Shown one piece after another: positions 43,317-53,243 of a DNA stretch of 64,000 nt. Both the position numbers and the translations under genes were made by a program. Source of the stretch: Thiomicrorhabdus chilensis DSM 12352 (lineage in GTDB: Bacteria > Pseudomonadota > Gammaproteobacteria > Thiomicrospirales > Thiomicrospiraceae). A model generated the notes under the pieces. It had not been told where the DNA came from and did no database searches. It saw nothing but the letters and a program-made list of their open reading frames with translations. The stretch covers positions 1,703,460 through 1,767,459 of the forward strand of contig NZ_KI519609.1 in NCBI RefSeq assembly GCF_000483485.1, read 5' to 3'. Position 1 is the stretch's first letter; each line of letters opens with the position of its first letter.

Positions 43317-44732
43317 TTACAAATAATCACGCACATCGACAAAATGACCCGCCACTGCCGCCGCCGCGGCCATTTGAGGACTTACCAGGTGAGTTCGACC
43401 ACCCGCACCCTGGCGTCCTTCGAAATTGCGATTTGAAGTGGAGGCACAATGTTTACCGGTCGGAAGCTTATCGGCATTCATCGCCAAGCACATTGAACAT
43501 CCCGGGTTGCGCCATTCAAAACCAGCCTCAATAAAAATTTTATCCAGCCCCTCTTTCTCAGCCTGCAACTTAACCAGTCCAGAACCCGGAACGGCTAACG
43601 CCTGCTCAACCGTCGCAGCGACTTTTTTACCTTTCAACACTTCGGCGGCGGCTCGAAAGTCCTCGATACGCGAATTGGTACAAGAACCGATAAACACATA
43701 ATCCACCGGAATTTCAGATATCGCCATATCGGCCTGTAAGCCCATATAATCCAAAGCGCGCTGAATGCCTCCGGCCTTCACCGAATCCGCTTCTTTCGCC
43801 GGATCCGGAATTCTGCCATTTACATCCAACACCATCTCCGGGGACGTGCCCCAAGAAACCTGCGGCTGAATTTTAGAACCGTCGATTTCAACGACTTTGT
43901 CGAACACGGCATCGTCGTCAGACTTCAAGTCCTGCCAAGCCTCTACCGCTGCATCCCATTGCTCTGCGGTAGGCGCAAAAGGACGACCTTTCACGTATTC
44001 AATCGTCTTCTCATCCACTGCCACTAGGCCGACACGTGCGCCGGCTTCGATGGCCATGTTGCAAACCGTCATACGGCCTTCAACCGACATGTCACGGAAC
44101 ACCTGCCCGCCAAACTCGATTGCGCAACCGTTGCCGCCCGCCGTGCCGATGGCTCCGATGATCGCCAAAACGACATCCTTAGGGCCAACCCCAGCCTGCA
44201 ATTCACCGTCCACTTTGACCAGCATGTTTTTCATTTTTTTCTGAATCAGGCATTGGGTAGCCATAACGTGCTCGACTTCAGAGGTACCGATACCGTGCGC
44301 CAAAGCCCCCAAAGCCCCATGAGTCGCGGTATGGGAATCGCCACACACCACAGTCATACCCGGCAAAGTCGCCCCTTCTTCCGGACCGACAACGTGAACA
44401 ATGCCTTGACGCGGATCACCCATGCCAAATTCGGTGATTCCAAACTCTTTGGTATTCATACCCAAGGTTTGTACCTGAATGCGTGAAACAGGATCCACAA
44501 TCGAATCCACGCCGCCACTCAAATCGGTGGTTGGCACATTATGATCCGGTGTCGCCAGGTTCGCGTCCACTCTCCAGGGTTTGCGACTGGCCAAACGCAG
44601 CCCTTCAAACGCCTGAGGAGAAGTCACTTCATGCAACAATTGACGATCAATATAAATCAACGCGGTGCCGTCTTCTTCCTGACGCACCACATGAGCATCC
44701 CACAACTTGTCATATAAAGTCTTTCCTGGCAT
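43317..44732 (-). CDS. leuC: 3-isopropylmalate dehydratase large subunit
   Basis: A 471-aa [4Fe-4S] aconitase-family subunit. Cluster cysteines are in [12 protein letters not shown] and [25 protein letters not shown] is the active-site loop. The ATG at 44732 gives the normal N-terminus [14 protein letters not shown]. First gene of the long leuC-to-metZ run. Confidence 0.98.
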
Positions 44733-44775
44733 CGCTTTCAACCTAACTCACGTAAAATTTAAAAAATAGTCATGA

Positions 44776-44803
44776 ATTATATCATTTCATCCAGCCGACT
44801 AAA
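44776..44803 (-). promoter_or_regulatory. Likely promoter of the leuC operon
   Basis: On the minus strand a perfect TATAAT (44776-44781) lies 16 bases from TTTAGT (44798-44803), a partial -35. It is about 45 bases before the leuC ATG. No Leu-codon-rich leader peptide was seen. Confidence 0.55.
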
Positions 44804-44845
44804 GAGTAAAATACACCCAAGATTCATCAATCAAGCTAGAGTTTT

Positions 44846-45490
44846 ATGAGCTATTCAGTCAAAGAGGTTTTTTATTCCCTGCAAGGTGAAGGGTTTCACA
44901 GCGGACGTCCCGCCATATTCTGCAGAATGAGCAAATGCAATCTCTGGAGCGGGCGCGAAGCCGATCGTTCGGAGGCGGTTTGCCAATTCTGCGACACCGA
45001 TTTCATCGGCACCGACGGACAAAATGGCGGACGCTTTGCAGACGCCGAAGCCCTGAGTCAGCACCTATTGCAATTTTGGCCCCAAGAGACCCAAACCACA
45101 CCCTTTGTCGTACTGACCGGCGGTGAACCGCTGCTGCAAGTTGACCAAGCCTTGATAGACAAGCTTCATCAGCACGGTTTTGAAGTTGCCGTGGAAACCA
45201 ACGGTACCAAATTAGCGCCCGACGGCATCGATTGGATCTGCGTCAGCCCCAAAGCCAACGCTCCTTTGCTTCTTGACCATGGCAAGGAACTCAAACTGGT
45301 TTACCCTCAAACCGACCTGCCGCCTGAAAAAGTCGCGCACCTGGCGTTCGATTTTTTCTTTTTGCAACCTATGGACGACGCCGACCCGACTGTCAGCGCA
45401 AACAATATTAAAATGGCGGTTCAATACTGCCTATTGCATCCACAATGGAAACTCAGCCTGCAAACCCATAAACTGCTTGGAATAGATTGA
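44846..45490 (+). CDS. queE: 7-carboxy-7-deazaguanine synthase
   Basis: A 214-aa radical SAM enzyme of the queuosine pathway. The cluster cysteines follow the expanded QueE spacing (FCRMSKCNLW, then CQFCDTDF after a 14-residue insert). FVVLTGGEPLLQ and VAVETNGT complete the fold. It converts 6-carboxytetrahydropterin to CDG. It is divergent from leuC; other que genes are not in the window. Confidence 0.95.
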   Translation: MSYSVKEVFYSLQGEGFHSGRPAIFCRMSKCNLWSGREADRSEAVCQFCDTDFIGTDGQNGGRFADAEALSQHLLQFWPQETQTTPFVVLTGGEPLLQVDQALIDKLHQHGFEVAVETNGTKLAPDGIDWICVSPKANAPLLLDHGKELKLVYPQTDLPPEKVAHLAFDFFFLQPMDDADPTVSANNIKMAVQYCLLHPQWKLSLQTHKLLGID

Positions 45491-45512
45491 TTGCACATTC
45501 ATAACAAACTAC

Positions 45513-45528
45513 CAGGCCTGCTCAAATT
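45513..45528 (+). repeat. AGGCCTGCTCA repeat copy between queE and rlmD
   Basis: CAGGCCTGCTCAAATT, 14 of 16 matches with the first 12 exact, in the 50-base queE-rlmD gap. Confidence 0.7.
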
Positions 45529-45540
45529 CAAACGAGACCT

Positions 45541-46779
45541 ATGAAAAACCCATCTACCCATTCATCCACGTCCTTAACCGTTGAAGGCTTAACTCATGAC
45601 GGCCGCGGGGTGGCCAAAATCGACGGTAAAGCCGTGTTTGTCGATCAAGCCATCCCCGGCGACCGAATTGAGGCCAGAATCACACGCCAGCACAGCAAAT
45701 ACGATGAGGCAACTCTACTGGAAATCACCACTCCGTCAAAAGATCGGGTCGAGCCCTTTTGCCCTCATTACCAAACCTGCGGCGGTTGCCAACTGCAACA
45801 CATGTCGGTAGCCGCCCAGCAATTCTGGAAAACCGAAAACTTCTTAACACGACTGACCCAGTCTGTGAACTCTGAAAACTGCACAATCTGCGAGCCCATT
45901 AGCGCGTCCGACCGAGGCTATCGTCGGCGGGCACGTCTTGGCCTGGCCATTGGTAAAAAGGATAAGGTCGCCAAACTCGGATTTCGCCAAAAGGAATCCA
46001 ACGAGCTGGTGGATATCGAATCCTGCCCCATACTGAGCGCCCCACTCAACCAAGCCATCCAAAAGCATCGCCCAATTTTATTGGAACAAGCCAGCCGCAA
46101 CTACAAAGAACTCACACTTGTGGAAGCCGACAATGGCGTATTTGGGCTTAACGAGCCAAGCGGTAGCCAACCTTTTTATAAGCTCAATGGACTCAAACTC
46201 AACTTCCCTCAAGACGGCTTCATTCAGGTCAACCGTCAAGTCAATGTGCAAATGGTCGAACAAGCTCTGGAGTGGCTTGAATTGCAACCCGAACACCGGG
46301 TATTGGATCTCTTCTGCGGGGTCGGCAACTTCACCTTGCCGATCGCCCAGCACGTCCACCAAGTCACCGGCATTGAAGGCGTTGCCGAGCTGGTTGAGTA
46401 CGCCAGCGACAATGCTGACCAAAATGGCTTAGAGAACGCCAACTTCCACAAAGCCGATCTGTTTGACGACTTCCGTTCAAAGCCTTGGTTCAAAAAACAG
46501 AGTTACCAACGCATCCTGCTTGATCCAGGCCGACAAGGCGCTTTTGAAATTTGCAAACAATTGTCACACCTCAAAGCCGAGATCATTGTGTACGTTTCCT
46601 GCAATGCTGCGACCTTGATCCGTGACATCAAGGAGCTGGAAGCCTACGGCTATCAACTCAGCCAAGCCTGCATGATCGACATGTTCCCGCATACCACCCA
46701 CACCGAAGTCATGGTGCAGCTCAGAAAAACCAAAAAAGCCAAAATCCGCAAACCCAAACGCGACATCTTCAAGTTTTAA
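45541..46779 (+). CDS. rlmD: 23S rRNA (U1939-C5)-methyltransferase
   Basis: A 412-aa RumA-type enzyme. N-terminal TRAM domain (LTVEGLTHDGRGVAKIDGKAVFV, split here as LTHDGRGVAKIDG), a [4Fe-4S] site (CPHYQTCGGCQLQHM with a fourth Cys near ENCTICEP), SAM-binding VLDLFCGVGNFTLP and the catalytic Cys in VYVSCNAATL. A basic tail (KKAKIRKPKRD) ends the protein. Confidence 0.96.
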   Translation: MKNPSTHSSTSLTVEGLTHDGRGVAKIDGKAVFVDQAIPGDRIEARITRQHSKYDEATLLEITTPSKDRVEPFCPHYQTCGGCQLQHMSVAAQQFWKTENFLTRLTQSVNSENCTICEPISASDRGYRRRARLGLAIGKKDKVAKLGFRQKESNELVDIESCPILSAPLNQAIQKHRPILLEQASRNYKELTLVEADNGVFGLNEPSGSQPFYKLNGLKLNFPQDGFIQVNRQVNVQMVEQALEWLELQPEHRVLDLFCGVGNFTLPIAQHVHQVTGIEGVAELVEYASDNADQNGLENANFHKADLFDDFRSKPWFKKQSYQRILLDPGRQGAFEICKQLSHLKAEIIVYVSCNAATLIRDIKELEAYGYQLSQACMIDMFPHTTHTEVMVQLRKTKKAKIRKPKRDIFKF

Positions 46780-46810
46780 ACTTTCAAACACCTCTATTGA
46801 ATTCAAAGTG

Positions 46811-46840
46811 AGAGGCGGTCAATTTTGAGCCTCTTTTTTT
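46811..46840 (+). terminator. Terminator after rlmD
   Basis: Plus-strand stem AGAGGC / GCCTCT with an inner TCAA / TTGA pairing, followed by seven T residues. A strong intrinsic terminator. Confidence 0.9.
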
Positions 46841-46915
46841 GCAAACTCACCCCCCCACTATTTCAAAACAACTTAATCAGTGATATAGTTTTATCTAAAA
46901 TATTAATTAGCTTAA

Positions 46916-46933
46916 ACTAACTTTTTAGTTAGT
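46916..46933. promoter_or_regulatory. Candidate metal-regulator operator (18-bp inverted repeat)
   Basis: ACTAACT-TTTT-AGTTAGT, perfect 7-bp arms, 69 bases before the metal-ABC operon start. It lies in the only regulatory gap of the operon. Because the third gene carries an MntR/DtxR-like domain, this is a plausible self-regulatory site. The match is to the general shape of DtxR-family boxes, not to a defined consensus. Confidence 0.5.
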
Positions 46934-47002
46934 CGCGACTTTTAAAAAGATAAGCTTTCGCTTTTTTGCCGTTAGCCAATCAATAAAGAACTGAACACCA
47001 AT

Positions 47003-47932
47003 ATGTTAAAAACAACACTGAATAAACAAATCACCCTTATTTCACTTTGCCTTGCCATGCTGTTTGCAAGCATCAACGCCCAAGCGAAACTCAATATCGT
47101 GACCACCACAGGCATGATTGCAGACCTGACCCAGAACATCGGCGGAGATGAAGTGGAGGTGACCGCCTTAATGAACACCGGAGTCGACCCCCACCTTTAC
47201 AAAGCCACACAAGGGGATCTGCGCAAACTGATGAAAGCCGATATCATTTTCTATAACGGCTTGCATCTGGAAGGCAAGATGCAGGATATTTTTGAAAAAA
47301 TGGCACGTAAAAAACCAGTTTATGCCATATCCGAGAAGTTGCCGAAAAACCGCATTCTGCATCACGGCCAATATCCCGACCCGCACATCTGGTTTGACGT
47401 ATTACTATGGAAACAAGCGGGAGAACGTGTTCTGGAGTTGCTTAACAAACATGAACCGGACAAAAGTGTGCTTTTCACGGCGAATGCCAATCTCTATTTT
47501 GACAAACTGGAAGCCTTGAACTTATGGGCGGCCCAGCAAGTTGCGAGCATTCCCGAAGCACAACGCATTCTGATTACCGCCCATGACGCGTTCGGCTATT
47601 TTGGGCAGGCCTATCAAATCAAGGTCATGGGCTTGCAAGGAATCAGCACCGCTTCGGAATTTGGTTTGCAGGACATCAAACAACTTAAAGAGGTGATTGT
47701 TGCCAATCAGGTGAAGGCGGTATTTGTTGAATCCTCCGTCTCGCCGCGTTTCATCAACTCTTTGGTTGAAGGAGTCGAAGCTGAAGGGCATCAGCTCAAA
47801 ATCGGAGGAGAACTGTTTTCTGACGCCATGGGCCTTCCCGACACCGAGGAAGGTACCTATTTAGGCATGGTAAAACACAACGTCAACACCATCGTCAGTG
47901 CCTTGAAAGGCCAATCAAAACCAACCCCTTAG
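47003..47932 (+). CDS. Mn/Fe-type ABC transporter solute-binding protein
   Basis: A 309-aa cluster A-I metal-binding protein with a Sec signal peptide (cleavage likely after INAQA). Metal ligands follow the Mn/Fe pattern: His in DPHLY, His in PDPHIWFD, Glu in FVESSVS and Asp in LFSDAMG. The His-rich loop of zinc-specific ZnuA is missing. It delivers metal to the permeases encoded downstream. The order binding protein, ATPase, fused permease, permease matches chlamydial ytgABCD and bacterial mnt/sit operons. Confidence 0.9.
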   Translation: MLKTTLNKQITLISLCLAMLFASINAQAKLNIVTTTGMIADLTQNIGGDEVEVTALMNTGVDPHLYKATQGDLRKLMKADIIFYNGLHLEGKMQDIFEKMARKKPVYAISEKLPKNRILHHGQYPDPHIWFDVLLWKQAGERVLELLNKHEPDKSVLFTANANLYFDKLEALNLWAAQQVASIPEAQRILITAHDAFGYFGQAYQIKVMGLQGISTASEFGLQDIKQLKEVIVANQVKAVFVESSVSPRFINSLVEGVEAEGHQLKIGGELFSDAMGLPDTEEGTYLGMVKHNVNTIVSALKGQSKPTP

Positions 47933-47945
47933 GAGCCTGACCTGA

Positions 47946-48740
47946 ATGACGCAAACCACTCGACCCTCCCCGATTTCAGTCAACAACCTCAATATGCGGT
48001 ACCAATACAAGCCGGTATTGACGGATGTGAGTTTTGAGATTCCCGAAGGCAAAACCATCGCCATCGTTGGCCCTAACGGTGCGGGCAAATCTACCCTGCT
48101 CAAAGGCATCATGGGACTGGAACCGCTAATGGAAGGCGAAGTCAAATTCTTTGGCGAACCGCTGGCGCAAAAACGCCTGGCCACGGCCTACGTGCCGCAA
48201 CGCGAGGAAATTGACTGGGATTTCCCGATCAAAGTCATGGACGTCGTTCTGATGGGTCGCCACGGTCAGCTCAAACTCTGGCAAAGGCCTTCAAAACTCG
48301 ACCATGAAATTGCCGAACAGGCGCTTAAAGACCTGCAAATGTGGGAGTTTAAAGACCGTCAAATCAGCCAGCTTTCTGGCGGGCAACAACAAAGGGTTTT
48401 CTTGGCGCGCGCTCTGGCGCAACAAGCCAGCCTCTACCTGATGGATGAGCCTTTTGCTGGCGTCGATGTGGCCACGGAAAAAGCCATCATCGAACTGTTC
48501 AAGAACCTAAAAGCGCAAGGAAAAACCATTGTCTGCGTGCACCACGACCTGAACACGGTCGGAGAGTATTTTGACTGGATCATTTTCATCAATGCCCGAC
48601 TGGTGGCCGCCGGCCCGGTGGAGAGTGTCCTTACCAAGGAAAATCTCAACAAAACCTATGGCGGACGTTTATCCCTGCTCAACGACCTCACCGAGCAGAT
48701 GTATCGCACACGCCTCAACCAAGCTCACAAACACGATTAG
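47946..48740 (+). CDS. Metal ABC transporter ATP-binding protein
   Basis: A 264-aa ABC ATPase. Walker A GPNGAGKST, Q-loop in YVPQREEIDWDFP (typical of Mn/Zn importers), signature LSGGQQQRVFLARAL, Walker B LYLMDEPFAGVD and switch His in VCVHHDL. It powers the two permeases encoded downstream. Thirteen bases separate it from the binding-protein gene. Confidence 0.95.
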   Translation: MTQTTRPSPISVNNLNMRYQYKPVLTDVSFEIPEGKTIAIVGPNGAGKSTLLKGIMGLEPLMEGEVKFFGEPLAQKRLATAYVPQREEIDWDFPIKVMDVVLMGRHGQLKLWQRPSKLDHEIAEQALKDLQMWEFKDRQISQLSGGQQQRVFLARALAQQASLYLMDEPFAGVDVATEKAIIELFKNLKAQGKTIVCVHHDLNTVGEYFDWIIFINARLVAAGPVESVLTKENLNKTYGGRLSLLNDLTEQMYRTRLNQAHKHD

Positions 48741-48755
48741 AGGCCGTTATCCGCT

Positions 48756-50105
48756 ATGCAAGAATGGAATCTGATCCAACAACCAGGCACTTGGGAGCTG
48801 CTCATTGAGTTCTGGTCCTTTGAAGACATGAACGCTTTGTGGGTGCTGATGGGCAGTATCCTGCTGGGCATGAGTGCTTCGGTCATCGGCGGCTTTGCCT
48901 TTTTAAGAAAACGCTCATTGATTGGAGATGCCCTGGCTCACGCCGCCCTTCCAGGGGTGATGATGGCCTTTCTGCTGTTTCAAACCCGCGATCCTTTAGT
49001 CATGTTTCTGGGAGCCCTAACCAGCAGTTTCATAGGCTTCTTTCTAATCGACTGGCTGCCCAAAAATACCAAAATCAAACCGGACACCGCACTGGCGATC
49101 ACCCTGTCCTTCTTCTTCGCGTTGGGTCTGATGCTACTCTCCCACATTCAAGGCCTGCAAGTAGAAAACAAAAGCGGGCTGGATAAAATCCTCTTTGGGC
49201 AAGCCGCCGCCATGACCCAGCAAGACATCACCTTACTGGCTTATGTAACGGTGTTTATATTGGTGGCGGTCACGGCCTTTTTCCAGAAGTTCCGATTAAT
49301 TGCTTTCAGTGCCATTTATGCCCGCAGTCTGGGTGTGCCTGTGGCCTTATATGAGCTTTTACTGGCCTTGCTGATTGTCATGTCTGTGGTGGTGGGACTG
49401 CAATTGGTCGGCGTGGTTCTGATGGCGGCCGTCTTGCTCACACCCATAGCGGCCGCGCGTTTCTGGAGTGATCAACTCACGACCATTCTCTTTCTGTCTG
49501 CTTTTTTTGGTGCCTTAAGCGCCTTGATCAGCACGCAAATTTCTTATTTAGCGCCAGCCATGCCAACCGGACCGTGGATGGTTGTCAGCTTGGCCAGTCT
49601 CTTTCTGCTCTCTTTACTGTTTGCGCCAAGTCGAGGCCTGATCAAACGCTATTGGCAACAACGCCAACTGCGTCAAAAAGTCTCCGAGGAAAACGTCTTA
49701 AGAACCCTTTACAAACTCTATGAGCGACGACAGTTTGAGCAAAATGATTTCAATATCGCCGATATACAAGCCTTGCGCAGCATGCCGACCGACATGCTCA
49801 AAGATACTCTAAAGCATTTATGCAAAAAACAGATGATTCGGGAATCCATGCGCGGCTTTTGCCTGAGCAAAGAGGGGTTGGAAATCGCCACTCAGCTCAC
49901 GCGTCGCCACCGCCTGTGGGAAAATTACCTGAATCAATATATGGACTTGCCTGCCGACCAGGTGCATTCTCAGGCGGAACGGATCGAGCACATCCTCACC
50001 CAGGAACAGGAATGGCAACTTGAAGCCGAACTGAAAAACCGGAAATCCGACCCACACGGCAATCCGATACCTGAAAACACGGAGGGCATGAGTCGTGATA
50101 AATGA
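48756..50105 (+). CDS. Metal ABC permease fused to an MntR/DtxR-like domain
   Basis: A 449-aa protein. Residues 1 to about 290 are an ABC-3 permease with about eight helices (SASVIGGFAFLRKRSLIGDALAHA split by the membrane). Residues about 305-440 resemble the MntR/DtxR regulator: a winged-helix segment (ENVLRTLYKLYERRQF ... KHLCKKQMIRES) and the metal-binding dimer region with RRHRLWENYL and AERIEHIL, which keep the His, two Glu and His ligands of B. subtilis MntR. The end has DPHGNPIP, a DtxR-family signature. Chlamydial YtgCR has the same fusion and releases a repressor. Cleavage here is unproven. Confidence 0.9.
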   Translation: MQEWNLIQQPGTWELLIEFWSFEDMNALWVLMGSILLGMSASVIGGFAFLRKRSLIGDALAHAALPGVMMAFLLFQTRDPLVMFLGALTSSFIGFFLIDWLPKNTKIKPDTALAITLSFFFALGLMLLSHIQGLQVENKSGLDKILFGQAAAMTQQDITLLAYVTVFILVAVTAFFQKFRLIAFSAIYARSLGVPVALYELLLALLIVMSVVVGLQLVGVVLMAAVLLTPIAAARFWSDQLTTILFLSAFFGALSALISTQISYLAPAMPTGPWMVVSLASLFLLSLLFAPSRGLIKRYWQQRQLRQKVSEENVLRTLYKLYERRQFEQNDFNIADIQALRSMPTDMLKDTLKHLCKKQMIRESMRGFCLSKEGLEIATQLTRRHRLWENYLNQYMDLPADQVHSQAERIEHILTQEQEWQLEAELKNRKSDPHGNPIPENTEGMSRDK

Positions 50106-50991
50106 TGTGTGGATTTTAGCCACCGCCTCTTTGGTCGCGATCTCCTGCGCCCTAGTCGGGGTATTTTTAATTTTACGTCGTCAGGCACTGATGGGCGACG
50201 CCATCAGCCATTCGGTATTACTGGGCATTGTGCTCGCCTTCCTGATTTCGGAAAGCCGCTCCCTGCCGGTCATGCTCGCCGGCGCAGTGATCATCGGCCT
50301 AATAACGGCCTGGTTGAGCGATACCTTACACAAGGTCGGCAAACTGCAAAGTGACGCCAGTATCGGCATCGTCTTCACTTTGTTTTTTGCCATTGGGGTT
50401 ATTTTGATATCCCTCTATGCTGGCCAAGTGGACTTGGATCAGGAATGCGTGCTCTATGGGGAAATCGCCTTTGTGCCATTTGACACCATCATCTGGGGCT
50501 CGTCCGAACAGGGACTGGATATCGGTCCCAGGGCCTTCTGGATGATCAGCGTGGTTTTTGTGATTGTTCTGGCCAGCATTCTGGTGGCTTTCAACCGCCT
50601 GCAGACCGTCGCCTTTCATCCCAGCTTGGCACTCTCGCTCGGAATCAATGTGGTCTTCTGGCACTATTTCCTGATGACCCTGGTCTCTTTGACAACCGTC
50701 GCCTCTTTTGACGCCGTCGGTGCCATATTGGTGGTCGCGTTATTGGTCATACCGGCAAGCAGTGCCTACTTGCTGGCTTCAACCCTTAAAAACATGCTCT
50801 GGCTCGCCGTGATTTATGCACAATCTGCCGTCTTGATCGGCTATGCACTGGCCTATGCATTGGACAGTGCGATTTCGGCATCGATCGCCGTCACCTCCGG
50901 CGTGTTATTGGGCCTTACCATCCTCGGTTTGCAGGTTCATAAAATACGTCTTCGCAGACAAGGAAAGGCGACGCTATTGGAAAAAGCCTAG
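50095..50991 (+). CDS. Metal ABC transporter permease, second subunit
   Basis: A 298-aa ABC-3 family permease with about eight or nine helices (GVFLILRRQALMGDAISHSVLLG at the N-terminus; VVALLVIPASSAYLLA toward the end). It starts with GTG, has GGAGGG upstream and overlaps the previous gene by 11 bases. It forms the channel with the fused permease. Confidence 0.93.
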   Translation: MINDVWILATASLVAISCALVGVFLILRRQALMGDAISHSVLLGIVLAFLISESRSLPVMLAGAVIIGLITAWLSDTLHKVGKLQSDASIGIVFTLFFAIGVILISLYAGQVDLDQECVLYGEIAFVPFDTIIWGSSEQGLDIGPRAFWMISVVFVIVLASILVAFNRLQTVAFHPSLALSLGINVVFWHYFLMTLVSLTTVASFDAVGAILVVALLVIPASSAYLLASTLKNMLWLAVIYAQSAVLIGYALAYALDSAISASIAVTSGVLLGLTILGLQVHKIRLRRQGKATLLEKA

Positions 50992-51075
50992 GCATTCCAA
51001 TACAAAAGATGTAAACGAGATAAAAGACATCAAAGAAGACATAAGACTAGAAACAAACCTTAAAACGCGATTTTA

Positions 51076-51091
51076 AAAACCAGCAGGCCTG
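51076..51091 (-). repeat. AGGCCTGCT repeat copy, minus strand
   Basis: CAGGCCTGCTGGTTTT on the minus strand, 14 of 16 matches, in the gap between the ABC operon and the HAD phosphatase gene. Confidence 0.55.
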
Positions 51092-51095
51092 GTTA

Positions 51096-51124
51096 AGGAA
51101 GCTCTGATTCAATCAGAGGCTCCT
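51096..51124. terminator. Hairpin between convergent genes
   Basis: A bulged stem centred on CTCTGA-TTCAAT-CAGAG, extended by AGG / CCT. No clear T run follows on either strand, but the position between two convergent genes suggests termination. Confidence 0.45.
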
Positions 51125-51133
51125 AAAAAAGTC

Positions 51134-51988
51134 TCAAGGTTCCAGTTGAGGCAGCAAAACCTGCTCTATATACTGCGCCACCCCTTCTTCGGAGTTGGAT
51201 GGTGCATAATTGGCCTGGTCAAACAGCGCCTTGACCGAATCGGCGGCGTTTTCCATAATCACGCGATGCCCGACCAACTGCAACATCTCCTTGTCATTCA
51301 TGCCATCCCCCAAAGCCACCGTCTCCTCGGGTAGAATGCCGTTTTGCGTCAACAGCATCTGCAACGCCCGGCCTTTAGAGACCCCAAGGTTCATGATTTC
51401 CAAATACTCGGGCGAAGTGAAAGTGATGCTCAATTGCCCATGAAAGGCCTCTTTGAGGGCTTTTTCAAGCGGCAACAGCACCTCATGATCCGCTGTAAAA
51501 TAAATCTTGTCGATATGCTTGAGCTCCAAATCCGCAAAGTCGGTCATCTCATACTCAAAGCCAGATTGGTCATGAATCGCCAGCAAAGCTTCATGGGGCT
51601 CCTCCACCAGCCATAAATCCTGCTGATAGAGATTGCGATGAATCTCAAAACCCTCTGACAACGCCAGGACCTGCGCCACCAATTCATCAGGAATATGATT
51701 TTCGTAAAGGATTTGCCCATGTGCATCATGCACTCTGGCTCCGTTTGAGGTAATCAGGCTCATCTCGACCCCAAGTTTCTGGGCAATCAAATACACATCC
51801 TGATAATGCCGCCCGGTCGCAAACATAAATTGCACTCCCCGTTCAACCAGCTTGTTGACGGCGGAAATGGTTCTGGCGGTCAGTTTATGATCCTGATTCA
51901 ACAAGGTACCGTCCAAATCCGAGACCACCAACTTGATGGGATGGGTTTTATCAAAGGTGGAATTTTGCTGATTAGAGAGTTGACTCAT
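51134..51988 (-). CDS. Cof-type HAD phosphatase
   Basis: A 284-aa HAD-superfamily IIB hydrolase. Motif I is VVSDLDGTLLN, motif II lies near MFATGRHY, motif III Lys is in GVSKGRAL and motif IV is ALGDGMNDKEML. Such enzymes dephosphorylate sugar phosphates, FMN or other small phosphates; the substrate is unknown. Confidence 0.92.
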   Translation of the reverse strand: MSQLSNQQNSTFDKTHPIKLVVSDLDGTLLNQDHKLTARTISAVNKLVERGVQFMFATGRHYQDVYLIAQKLGVEMSLITSNGARVHDAHGQILYENHIPDELVAQVLALSEGFEIHRNLYQQDLWLVEEPHEALLAIHDQSGFEYEMTDFADLELKHIDKIYFTADHEVLLPLEKALKEAFHGQLSITFTSPEYLEIMNLGVSKGRALQMLLTQNGILPEETVALGDGMNDKEMLQLVGHRVIMENAADSVKALFDQANYAPSNSEEGVAQYIEQVLLPQLEP

Positions 51989-52030
51989 AGATTCAATCGG
52001 TTAGCGCTTATGCCGTTAAAGGAAAATCAA

Positions 52031-52060: not shown

Positions 52061-52291
52061 TCATGGTTTTTGAATTCTAACGGTTTCGGCCTGGGCTATC
52101 AAACCTTCTATCAAAGGACGGCAGCCGCCGCAGCCTTGGCATGCATAGGTCAAATCGCTGACCTGTTCGACGCTCTTTACCCCTTCTTGAATCGCTGTAA
52201 GGACTTCGGCACGAGACACATCGTAACAGCTGCATACCTGCACTAGAGTTTGATCCAGAGACTTGGAATTTGAGGCATTTTGAGTCATCAT
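52061..52291 (-). CDS. Bfd-like [2Fe-2S] protein
   Basis: A 76-aa BFD-like ferredoxin. The four cysteines are in VCSCYDVSRAEV (C-x-C) and ACQGCGGC (C-x2-C). Bacterioferritin-associated ferredoxin reduces ferritin iron for release; related domains occur in NirB and others. AAGGTGA precedes the ATG at 52291. It follows the PilZ gene by 13 bases. No bacterioferritin gene is nearby. Confidence 0.85.
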   Translation of the reverse strand: MMTQNASNSKSLDQTLVQVCSCYDVSRAEVLTAIQEGVKSVEQVSDLTYACQGCGGCRPLIEGLIAQAETVRIQKP

Positions 52292-52304
52292 TAATTTTTC
52301 ACCT

Positions 52305-53243
52305 TCACTTTTGATGCGGATGCGCCAAAGCCAATTCCTGAGCCGTGACAAAACGGGTAATGGAAGCCGCATCCTCTTCACTCAAACCTTCAAACTGGAA
52401 CGCAACCCGCTGATTTTCATCTTGAACTGAAAGGCTCTGGAGCGGCTCGGAAGTTGGGGAATTGACATAGACGACCTGGGCATACACCAGCAATACACGC
52501 CCCTCAATCTCCATCAAAATGCACACCTTCTGATGCAATTTGAAATGACTTGATGAATCAAAAGCCATGCCGCCCCGACTCAAATCCACCGATTGCACCG
52601 GCCAGTTTTGTGGCATCGGAATGATTGGACTGACTTTTTTGAGATTATGATAAGCAACTTCATAGACATTGAGCTTGCTGATCAGGTGTGTCAACACCTG
52701 CGACAACCAGTTTCCCTGACTCGCCAATACCGACAGATTATGCAAATAATCCTCTCCGGAAAAAAGCGGAAAATCCGATTCGGCATAAAACACCGTTTCG
52801 CCCTCCAGATTCCGATCAATCAGACTTAACAAGCTTTCAACCAACTGGTCGATGCGTTGGTGCAGAGCTTCAATCAGTGGAAAAACCTTAGAAGCTCGTC
52901 CGCTTTGTGGTGCGACAATCTCACGGTCTTGATGCAAACGGGTTAAAAATTCAGGGTGTGCTTTGGGGGATTTCTTTTCAATCAGCTGGGTCAAGAGCCA
53001 GGCCATAAAGTCGATTCGCTGATTGAACTCATCAAACAGTGCAACCGCACCATTGGCGATGTGACGTTCATCGGTGAACAACACTCTAAGCGCCGCAGCC
53101 GCTTGCTCAAACTGTTGCATGTGCTGTTCAGGCAGAATCGACTGTTTGAAATTCTCTGAACCGACTCCCGACTGCGGCAATGAAAGCACATACAAGGGCA
53201 AAGAGACATCCACTCGAAAGAACCGACGTTTTTCCTGCTTCAA
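52305..53243 (-). CDS. PilZ-domain protein with long helical insert
   Basis: A 312-aa protein with both c-di-GMP-binding motifs of PilZ, but far apart: RRFFR (residues 6-10, RxxxR) at the N-terminus and DLSRGG (D/N-x-S-x-x-G) near residue 220. The rest of the beta-barrel lies between about 215 and 300. The ~200 residues in between look alpha-helical and match nothing I recognise. It probably reads c-di-GMP made by cyclases such as the LOV-GGDEF protein. Confidence 0.8.
   Translation of the reverse strand: MKQEKRRFFRVDVSLPLYVLSLPQSGVGSENFKQSILPEQHMQQFEQAAAALRVLFTDERHIANGAVALFDEFNQRIDFMAWLLTQLIEKKSPKAHPEFLTRLHQDREIVAPQSGRASKVFPLIEALHQRIDQLVESLLSLIDRNLEGETVFYAESDFPLFSGEDYLHNLSVLASQGNWLSQVLTHLISKLNVYEVAYHNLKKVSPIIPMPQNWPVQSVDLSRGGMAFDSSSHFKLHQKVCILMEIEGRVLLVYAQVVYVNSPTSEPLQSLSVQDENQRVAFQFEGLSEEDAASITRFVTAQELALAHPHQK

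Follow-up and report, generated by a model that had tools for sequence, protein, structure and literature searches.

Fusions between a metal permease and a DtxR-type domain are a known architecture and not a new one, since permease-DtxR fusions have been listed in 11 phyla (Thompson 2012, as relayed in the accessible part of the review PMC5599777). The same part of that review describes the chlamydial tail as being cleaved (bands of 49 and 28 kDa) and as repressing its own operon with iron. The accessible parts of PMC7755916 and PMC6504234 adopt the same released-repressor model, through which permease-DtxR fusions have so far been read. Fused regulatory domains are also a known means of transporter control, as set out in the available portion of PMC10710835, which describes transinhibition by fused cytosolic domains in MetNI and ModABC; the term "DtxR" was absent from its main text in the form available. 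FeoA-DtxR fusions are already present in databases according to the accessible part of PMC8980893, and the available main text of PMC8749426, which treats the evolution of Feo, does not use the word "repressor". The titles and abstract openings found by searches of an open-licence library contained no proposal of a DtxR tail that acts on a transporter.

We analysed a window of 64,000 nucleotides from Thiomicrorhabdus chilensis, in which one open frame encodes an ABC-3 permease whose C-terminus carries a domain of DtxR type (Table 1). Pfam searches revealed PF00950 (ABC-3) at residues 28-289 (201.1 bits, cut-off 20.1) and PF02742 (Fe_dep_repr_C) at residues 372-440 (79.5 bits, cut-off 27) in the same frame, as the first-pass annotation had proposed in describing a metal permease fused to an MntR/DtxR-like domain. 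The motifs that it had pointed out were all found in the tail, with RRHRL starting at residue 383, AERIEH at 407 and DPHGNPIP at 432. The winged-helix half gave no match to PF01325 (Fe_dep_repress, the DtxR DNA-binding model) even at E <= 1, and the tail gave no Pfam match to a FeoA (SH3-like) domain. The fused gene is the third of an operon of four, after the genes for a ZnuA-type binding protein and an ABC ATPase and before that for a second, tail-less ABC-3 permease; this order is indeed that of ytgABCD. The fusion at 48756-50105 goes well past what chance could produce, and the genus conserves it: a frame of 414-475 aa with a DtxR-type domain was found in 31 of 32 Thiomicrorhabdus genomes, the exception being G015 (82% complete), in which both the fused frame and the permease went undetected.

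Table 1. Positions of the operon features and promoter elements within the window.
Feature	Position	Strand	Basis
-10-like TATAGT, TG before (extended -10)	46884..46889	+	box begins 17 nt after
Putative operator box TTAG-CTTAAA-CTAA	46907..46920		only 8/8 match to TTAG-N6-CTAA in 64 kb window
Inverted repeat ACTAAC-TTTTTA-GTTAGT, overlapping box	46916..46933		sequence
Metal-binding protein, ZnuA family	47003..47932	+	Pfam/NCBIfam
ABC ATPase	47946..48740	+	best NCBIfam model of manganese/iron type, below its cut-off
Fused permease, ABC-3 with DtxR-like tail, 449 aa	48756..50105	+	Pfam, structure prediction
Predicted single helix, residues 295-324, bearing N313	49638..49727	+	AlphaFold2 model
Divergent recognition helix, residues 343-354, MPTDMLKDTLKH	49782..49817	+	alignment of tails
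Metal-binding domain, residues 372-440; H385, E389, H404, E408, E411, H412, DPHGNPIP	49869..50075	+	Pfam, alignment
Second ABC-3 permease, no tail	50095..50991	+	Pfam

The ligands of the binding protein, which we take to be H64, H128, H194 and D274, form a TroA/AztC-type set, so that Mn, Fe and Zn are all still possible. A manganese-type assignment with the Glu of FVESS as third ligand was dropped, as the position that presumably corresponds to the third TroA/ZnuA ligand is H194 (AHDAFGYF). The NCBIfam matches of all four operon proteins fell under the curated cut-offs and their relatives were of Zn, Mn and Fe types, so that the metal of the transporter may be any of the three. A search of 44700-52000 against Rfam gave no riboswitch match at the gathering score. 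On the reverse strand (52061-52381), about 1 kb away from the metal operon, we noted a small Cys-rich frame that reads like a bacterioferritin-associated ferredoxin.

An AlphaFold2 prediction on 44 fused sequences (mean pLDDT 83.9) revealed one continuous helix, residues 295-324, that would link the membrane domain to the first winged-helix helix, the site of N313. In the model, the permease half matched the PsaBC chain 7kyp (TM-score 0.89 by target length), and the tail matched DR2539 (TM-score 0.84 by target length), of which 8pvt was also the best sequence match of the tail among solved structures. The tail modelled alone gave a pLDDT of 86.6, and superposition of this isolated model on DtxR (2qq9) gave a Z-score of 18.8 and an rmsd of 1.7 over 135 aligned residues with 29% identity. 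These predictions indicate that a winged-helix fold is retained in the tail. The accessible part of PMC3327659 describes DR2539 as lacking the Glu11 of MntR and depending on His98; the tail likewise lacks this Glu and keeps His98 as H404.

The window's genome (G000, 2.44 Mb, 99.99% complete) contains two PF02742 matches, namely the fusion and a separate 224-aa protein with DNA-binding, metal and FeoA domains, the gene of which lies outside the window. Across the 32 genus genomes, the fusion was found in 31, a separate DtxR in 30 and both in 29; G001 and G018 had the fusion without the separate protein, and G015 had the reverse. The 29 genomes with both provided matched pairs for comparison, which left out G001, G018 and G015. 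Seven predicted ligand positions were assigned on the assumption that they correspond to M10/D8, H79, E83, H98, C102/E, E105 and H106 of DtxR/MntR, and N313 of the tail is presumably the equivalent of DtxR M10 and MntR D8. In all 29 tails these columns read N, H, E, H, E, E, H. All 29 separate proteins had D at the first position and likewise at that of H98, and the two sets were unlike at several conserved domain-2 positions. Upon extension to 61 distinct tails from the family, from Bacteroidota including Balneolales and from one uncultured bacterium, the predicted ligand positions were kept in all 61. Among 47 distinct separate proteins, the first position was D in 41 and N in 6; N therefore need not abolish binding.

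The recognition helix was nearly or fully invariant in the separate proteins (SQASVSNMLKKL-like) but ranked with the least conserved parts of the tails. In the tails, the mean pairwise identity was 0.416 for the recognition helix versus 0.708 for the metal domain, whereas in the separate proteins of the same 29 genomes it was 0.931 versus 0.855. Expressed as a divergence ratio of recognition helix to metal domain, this gave 2.0 for the tails (95% range 1.82-2.18) and 0.47 for the separate proteins (0.31-0.59), with ranges taken from 300 draws of 15 genomes. At E <= 0.001, PF01325 was matched by none of 44 fused proteins (44 of the 61 distinct) and by all 27 separate proteins searched (27 of the 47 distinct), and PF02742 was matched by 44/44 fused proteins. 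A tree of the DtxR domain parted fused from separate sequences with 100/99 support, although it was built from few columns, its branches are long, its bootstrap had not settled and it lacks an outgroup root. The tryptophan of HRLWE was considered as a mark of the fused tail, being W in 61/61 tails and in 0/47 separate proteins, but it also occurs in several Bacteroidota separate DtxR proteins and is not diagnostic. The winged helix-turn-helix (wHTH) carried a mean net charge of +3.3 in the tails versus +1.1 in the separate proteins, and a basic, folded domain of this kind makes unspecific DNA or lipid binding possible. In four close pairs, dN/dS in the tails was 0.084 for helices 2-3 and 0.054 for the metal domain (separate proteins, 0.036 and 0.032), so that helix 2-3 of the tail is not free to drift.

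To our knowledge, Chlamydia has no separate DtxR regulator. Here, the tail is not the sole DtxR regulator candidate, as G000 has a separate DtxR and the putative operator box upstream of the operon tracks that protein. We scored the box in the 420 nt upstream of the binding-protein domain in 45 family operons. The count covers genomes with a permease match at E <= 1e-45 (14 of 60 drawn had none and were left out, among them G015, which has no permease) and leaves out G016 and G024, whose pieces contain no binding-protein gene, and G019, with only 18 nt upstream. The pattern TTAG-N6-CTAA was settled on once the repeat in the window itself had been seen, and shuffled regions were the sole chance control, giving a chance rate of about 0.012 per region. 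A composite box with fixed inner bases was set aside in favour of this looser pattern, being present in 18/32 genomes and missing from G000. The box was found in 31/31 operons with a tail and a separate DtxR, in 11/11 operons without a tail but with a separate DtxR, and in 0/3 operons with a tail but without a separate DtxR (G001, G018 and G037). The association of box with separate protein gave a Fisher p of 7e-5, which treats related genomes as independent; the three tail-only genomes, however, are spread over separate branches of the permease tree, some basal forks of which are open (that of G001 included), and the tail-less pair G042/G043 is nested among tailed operons (97/94) and keeps the box. 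The nine further tail-less operons belong to lineages branching outside the tailed ones. In 8 of the 11 tail-less operons (L140, L141 and L143-L148), the same 9-11 kb piece also contains the separate DtxR gene, in the opposite orientation.

Two of the tail-only assemblies are nearly or fully complete (G001, 2 contigs, 99%; G037, 1 contig, 100%), and G018, a draft of 130 contigs (93%), might merely miss the separate gene; its TATAGT is kept and its box is gone. All three keep the seven predicted ligand positions. The G001 tail (L112:3999-5348, reverse strand), from a genome with neither box nor separate DtxR, has lost the DPHG..IP end with all seven positions in place. The natural reading of the sequence patterns is that the separate DtxR reads the TTAG-N6-CTAA box and the tail does something else worth keeping. 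The box follows the separate DtxR and not the tail, and the tail is very likely not the reader of this operon's operator. The parallel with YtgCR that had been drawn for this locus is sound for the fusion and the gene order but is not supported for release as a repressor of its own operon, against which stand the unconserved recognition helix, the complete lack of PF01325 matches among the fused proteins and a box that follows the separate DtxR.

In 20 of 26 boxed genus operons, the box is preceded at a distance of 12-17 nt by a hexamer similar to TATAGT, from a list picked by eye; a promoter scan was not above chance (2 found versus 3.8 expected). Two further TTAG-N6-CTAA boxes were seen elsewhere. 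One (L135:2040-2053, G030) lies about 50 nt before a gene for a 207-aa signal-peptide protein, upstream of frames that read like outer-membrane receptors, and possibly belongs to the same metal regulon. The other (L134:2064-2077, G002) lies just past the end of a gene that reads as FadL/OmpP1-like, with an epimerase-like gene about 200 nt further on in the same orientation; given that position, its description as preceding an outer-membrane protein gene was dropped.

Beyond the genus, the tail profile (E <= 1e-18) matched G000 alone among 299 evenly drawn Pseudomonadota genomes. Among 247 Bacteroidota genomes, 20 had frames of 431-516 aa that matched the tail profile at E <= 1e-28, and the permease was present in all 13 of the fusion frames examined. 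In nine of the ten Bacteroidota loci L216-L225, a separate DtxR gene comes first, and behind it lie the genes for binding protein, ATPase, fused permease and second permease, the last of these about 2 kb further on in L223; in L225 the fusion alone is visible. In ten Balneolales loci, the genes for DtxR, binding protein, ATPase and permease follow one another in this order. The second permease could be reached in seven of them, and in L054 the contig ends within the permease, ahead of the tail. The box precedes the DtxR frame in nine of these ten, a count that has no chance control. The divergence ratio of recognition helix to metal domain was again higher in the tails than in the separate proteins, at 1.98 versus 0.78 in nine Bacteroidota loci, 3.40 versus 1.62 in Balneolales (9 pairs) and 4.87 versus 0.00 in the Chryseobacterium type (5 pairs). 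The nine Bacteroidota loci keep the ligand positions except for H in place of N in the L224 fusion; the separate protein of L222 has H in place of the C102-type E. The best match of the L216 fusion to PF01325 had an E-value of 0.038. These comparisons suggest that the tail is probably not an operator reader in the Bacteroidota fusions either. Of 19 fusion genomes outside Thiomicrorhabdus, 15 have a strong separate DtxR and G363 has only weak short matches; none was seen in G365, G366 and G374. Three longer permease fusions (L199:679-2163, L202:1265-2758 and L204:1130-2623; frames of 498-516 aa) have D and not N at the first ligand position, and Pfam recognised an additional FeoA-like stretch at the end of that of L199. 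No binding-protein or ATPase gene was seen within the 3.4-4.5 kb read around them; these D-bearing forms are perhaps closer to the ancestral fusion.

Shorter tail-matching frames of 341-369 aa were found in 11 of the 247 Bacteroidota genomes, and G364 has one of 351 aa. At 12 loci (L152:188-1917, L203:2118-4566, L205:1039-3541 and L206-L214), a DtxR-like protein with a hydrophobic N-terminal helix (12/12) is encoded directly after a canonical DtxR gene; L215, a 312-aa frame that departs from this anchored pattern, was left out of the set. The hydrophobic helix is followed by a linker like the permease end (P..G type, PxxG-type) and then by the DtxR-like part; in L212 and L214 the C-terminal part contains a further hydrophobic window. 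Two FeoA stretches were present in each of the three anchored proteins tested by Pfam. FeoB is encoded next in 11 of the 12 loci, and the twelfth piece ends first. The predicted ligand positions are kept in 12/12, the first being D. In the anchored proteins, identity was 0.293 for the recognition helix and 0.660 for the metal domain; in the canonical DtxR proteins beside them it was 0.551 and 0.648.

Taking these results together, we consider it somewhat better than even that the tail, by descent a DtxR-family domain, now serves as a membrane-tethered metal sensor and acts on the transporter that carries it, an interpretation drawn from sequence comparison and models. Cytosolic Mn or Fe, possibly Zn, would fill the two predicted sites (N313/E408/E411/H412 and H385/E389/H404), upon which the metal domain would clamp onto the exit helix that bears N313 after the last membrane helix. 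The clamped transporter would be held in a non-transporting state and import would be slowed (transinhibition). Transcription would provide the slower control of amount, with the separate canonical DtxR binding at the TTAG-N6-CTAA operator. The invariant ligands, the divergent recognition helix, the tracking of the box, the modelled helix 295-324 and the Feo-linked recurrence are consistent with this sensor. Counting against it are the folded basic wHTH, the purifying selection on helix 2-3, the single tail per permease pair and the H for N in L224, as well as G365, G366 and G374 without a separate DtxR, the weak matches of G363 and the draft state of G018. Since the second permease lacks a tail, a dimeric clamp of the MetNI kind cannot form within a single transporter. 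Of the two roles put forward in the first-pass annotation, a cytoplasmic metal gate, its second option, appears to fit the data best, and gating of transport by the tail is on balance favoured.

Other roles for the tail were weighed against this sensor. The tail may instead pair with the separate DtxR at the membrane and keep it off DNA, coupling transcription to the state of the transporter, for which Mlc and the glucose transporter are a precedent. The metal/dimerisation domain is retained in the tail, tail and separate DtxR occur together in 29/32 genus genomes, and the separate DtxR gene lies downstream of the second permease on the same strand, as one gene run, in G006, G008, G010, G020, G022 and G031 and also in G040, from another genus. 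However, the tail and its ligand positions persist in the three genomes without a separate DtxR, and several conserved domain-2 positions differ between the two proteins; we regard such sequestration as unlikely. It is likewise improbable that the tail is a plain acceptor, a buffer or chaperone that takes the ion leaving the channel and so aids import: the ligand positions (61/61) and the modelled location directly after the last membrane helix would suit this role, but a complete DtxR metal domain with a folded wHTH appears to exceed the needs of a buffer.

A YtgR-like repressor, either cut off or bound to DNA while still anchored in the membrane, with metal as co-repressor, is quite improbable. 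The architecture and ytgABCD gene order, the predicted DtxR fold, the basic wHTH and the 28 kDa product and DNA binding reported for Chlamydia (accessible parts of PMC5599777, PMC6504234 and PMC7755916) speak for it. Against it stand the divergent recognition helix with 0/44 matches to the DNA-binding model, an operator missing in 3/3 tail-only genomes and present in 11/11 tail-less operons, and a predicted linker that forms one helix and no loose loop. A free tail made from an internal start was also dropped: a scan of 31 genus genomes revealed no in-frame internal start near the tail common to the genus, and the most frequent candidate, a start-like codon four codons before the N ligand, occurs in only 13/31 and is missing from the window's gene. 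That the tail is the decaying remnant of an old repressor fusion is hardly credible, for although its recognition helix is divergent and it is gone from the nested pair G042/G043 and from nine operons of outside-branching lineages, the ligand positions are kept in 61/61 tails of two phyla and tail dN/dS is 0.05-0.09 in four close pairs.

A tail that does not read the operator would change the annotation of such fusions. For a free-living sulfur bacterium, this reading also suggests that a repressor-derived domain controls metal ABC import after translation. Sequence comparison further points to a repressor-derived sensor placed on a transporter beside the true repressor and apparently reused at FeoB. 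More tentatively, and somewhat short of even odds, we propose a portable tethered module derived from DtxR that sits on unrelated importers, having lost DNA reading and kept its metal site, and that shuts import directly. Its carriers in this joint proposal would be the ABC permease of Thiomicrorhabdus relatives and Bacteroidota and the anchored, FeoA-bearing partner of FeoB in Bacteroidota. One ancestral sensor would then act twice, as a repressor on DNA and as a brake on the transporter.

Upon comparison with known systems, the T. chilensis operon shares with chlamydial YtgCR the permease-DtxR-type fusion and the ytgABCD order (accessible part of PMC5599777), but differs from YtgCR, which was compared by description, in having a separate DtxR with a presumed operator and an unconserved recognition helix in the tail. 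The predicted fold and the metal ligand positions of the tail are those of the DtxR/MntR regulators DR2539, DtxR, SloR and ScaR; unlike these, the tail is membrane-tethered, has no PF01325 or FeoA match and carries N for M/D at the first ligand. The permease domain is that of PsaBC-type importers (7kyp), whereas the matched chains of those importers have 258-290 aa and no tail, versus 449 aa here. The proposed logic, in which substrate on a fused cytosolic domain halts import, is that of MetNI and ModABC, although in the account available from PMC10710835 their domain is dimeric and placed on the ATPase, while here it is on one permease and derived from a repressor. The Feo-linked anchored DtxR-FeoA protein shares with the fusion a membrane anchor, a PxxG-type linker, intact predicted ligands, a divergent recognition helix and an adjoining canonical DtxR, but it has a single N-terminal anchor helix and FeoA domains, and its importer is FeoB.
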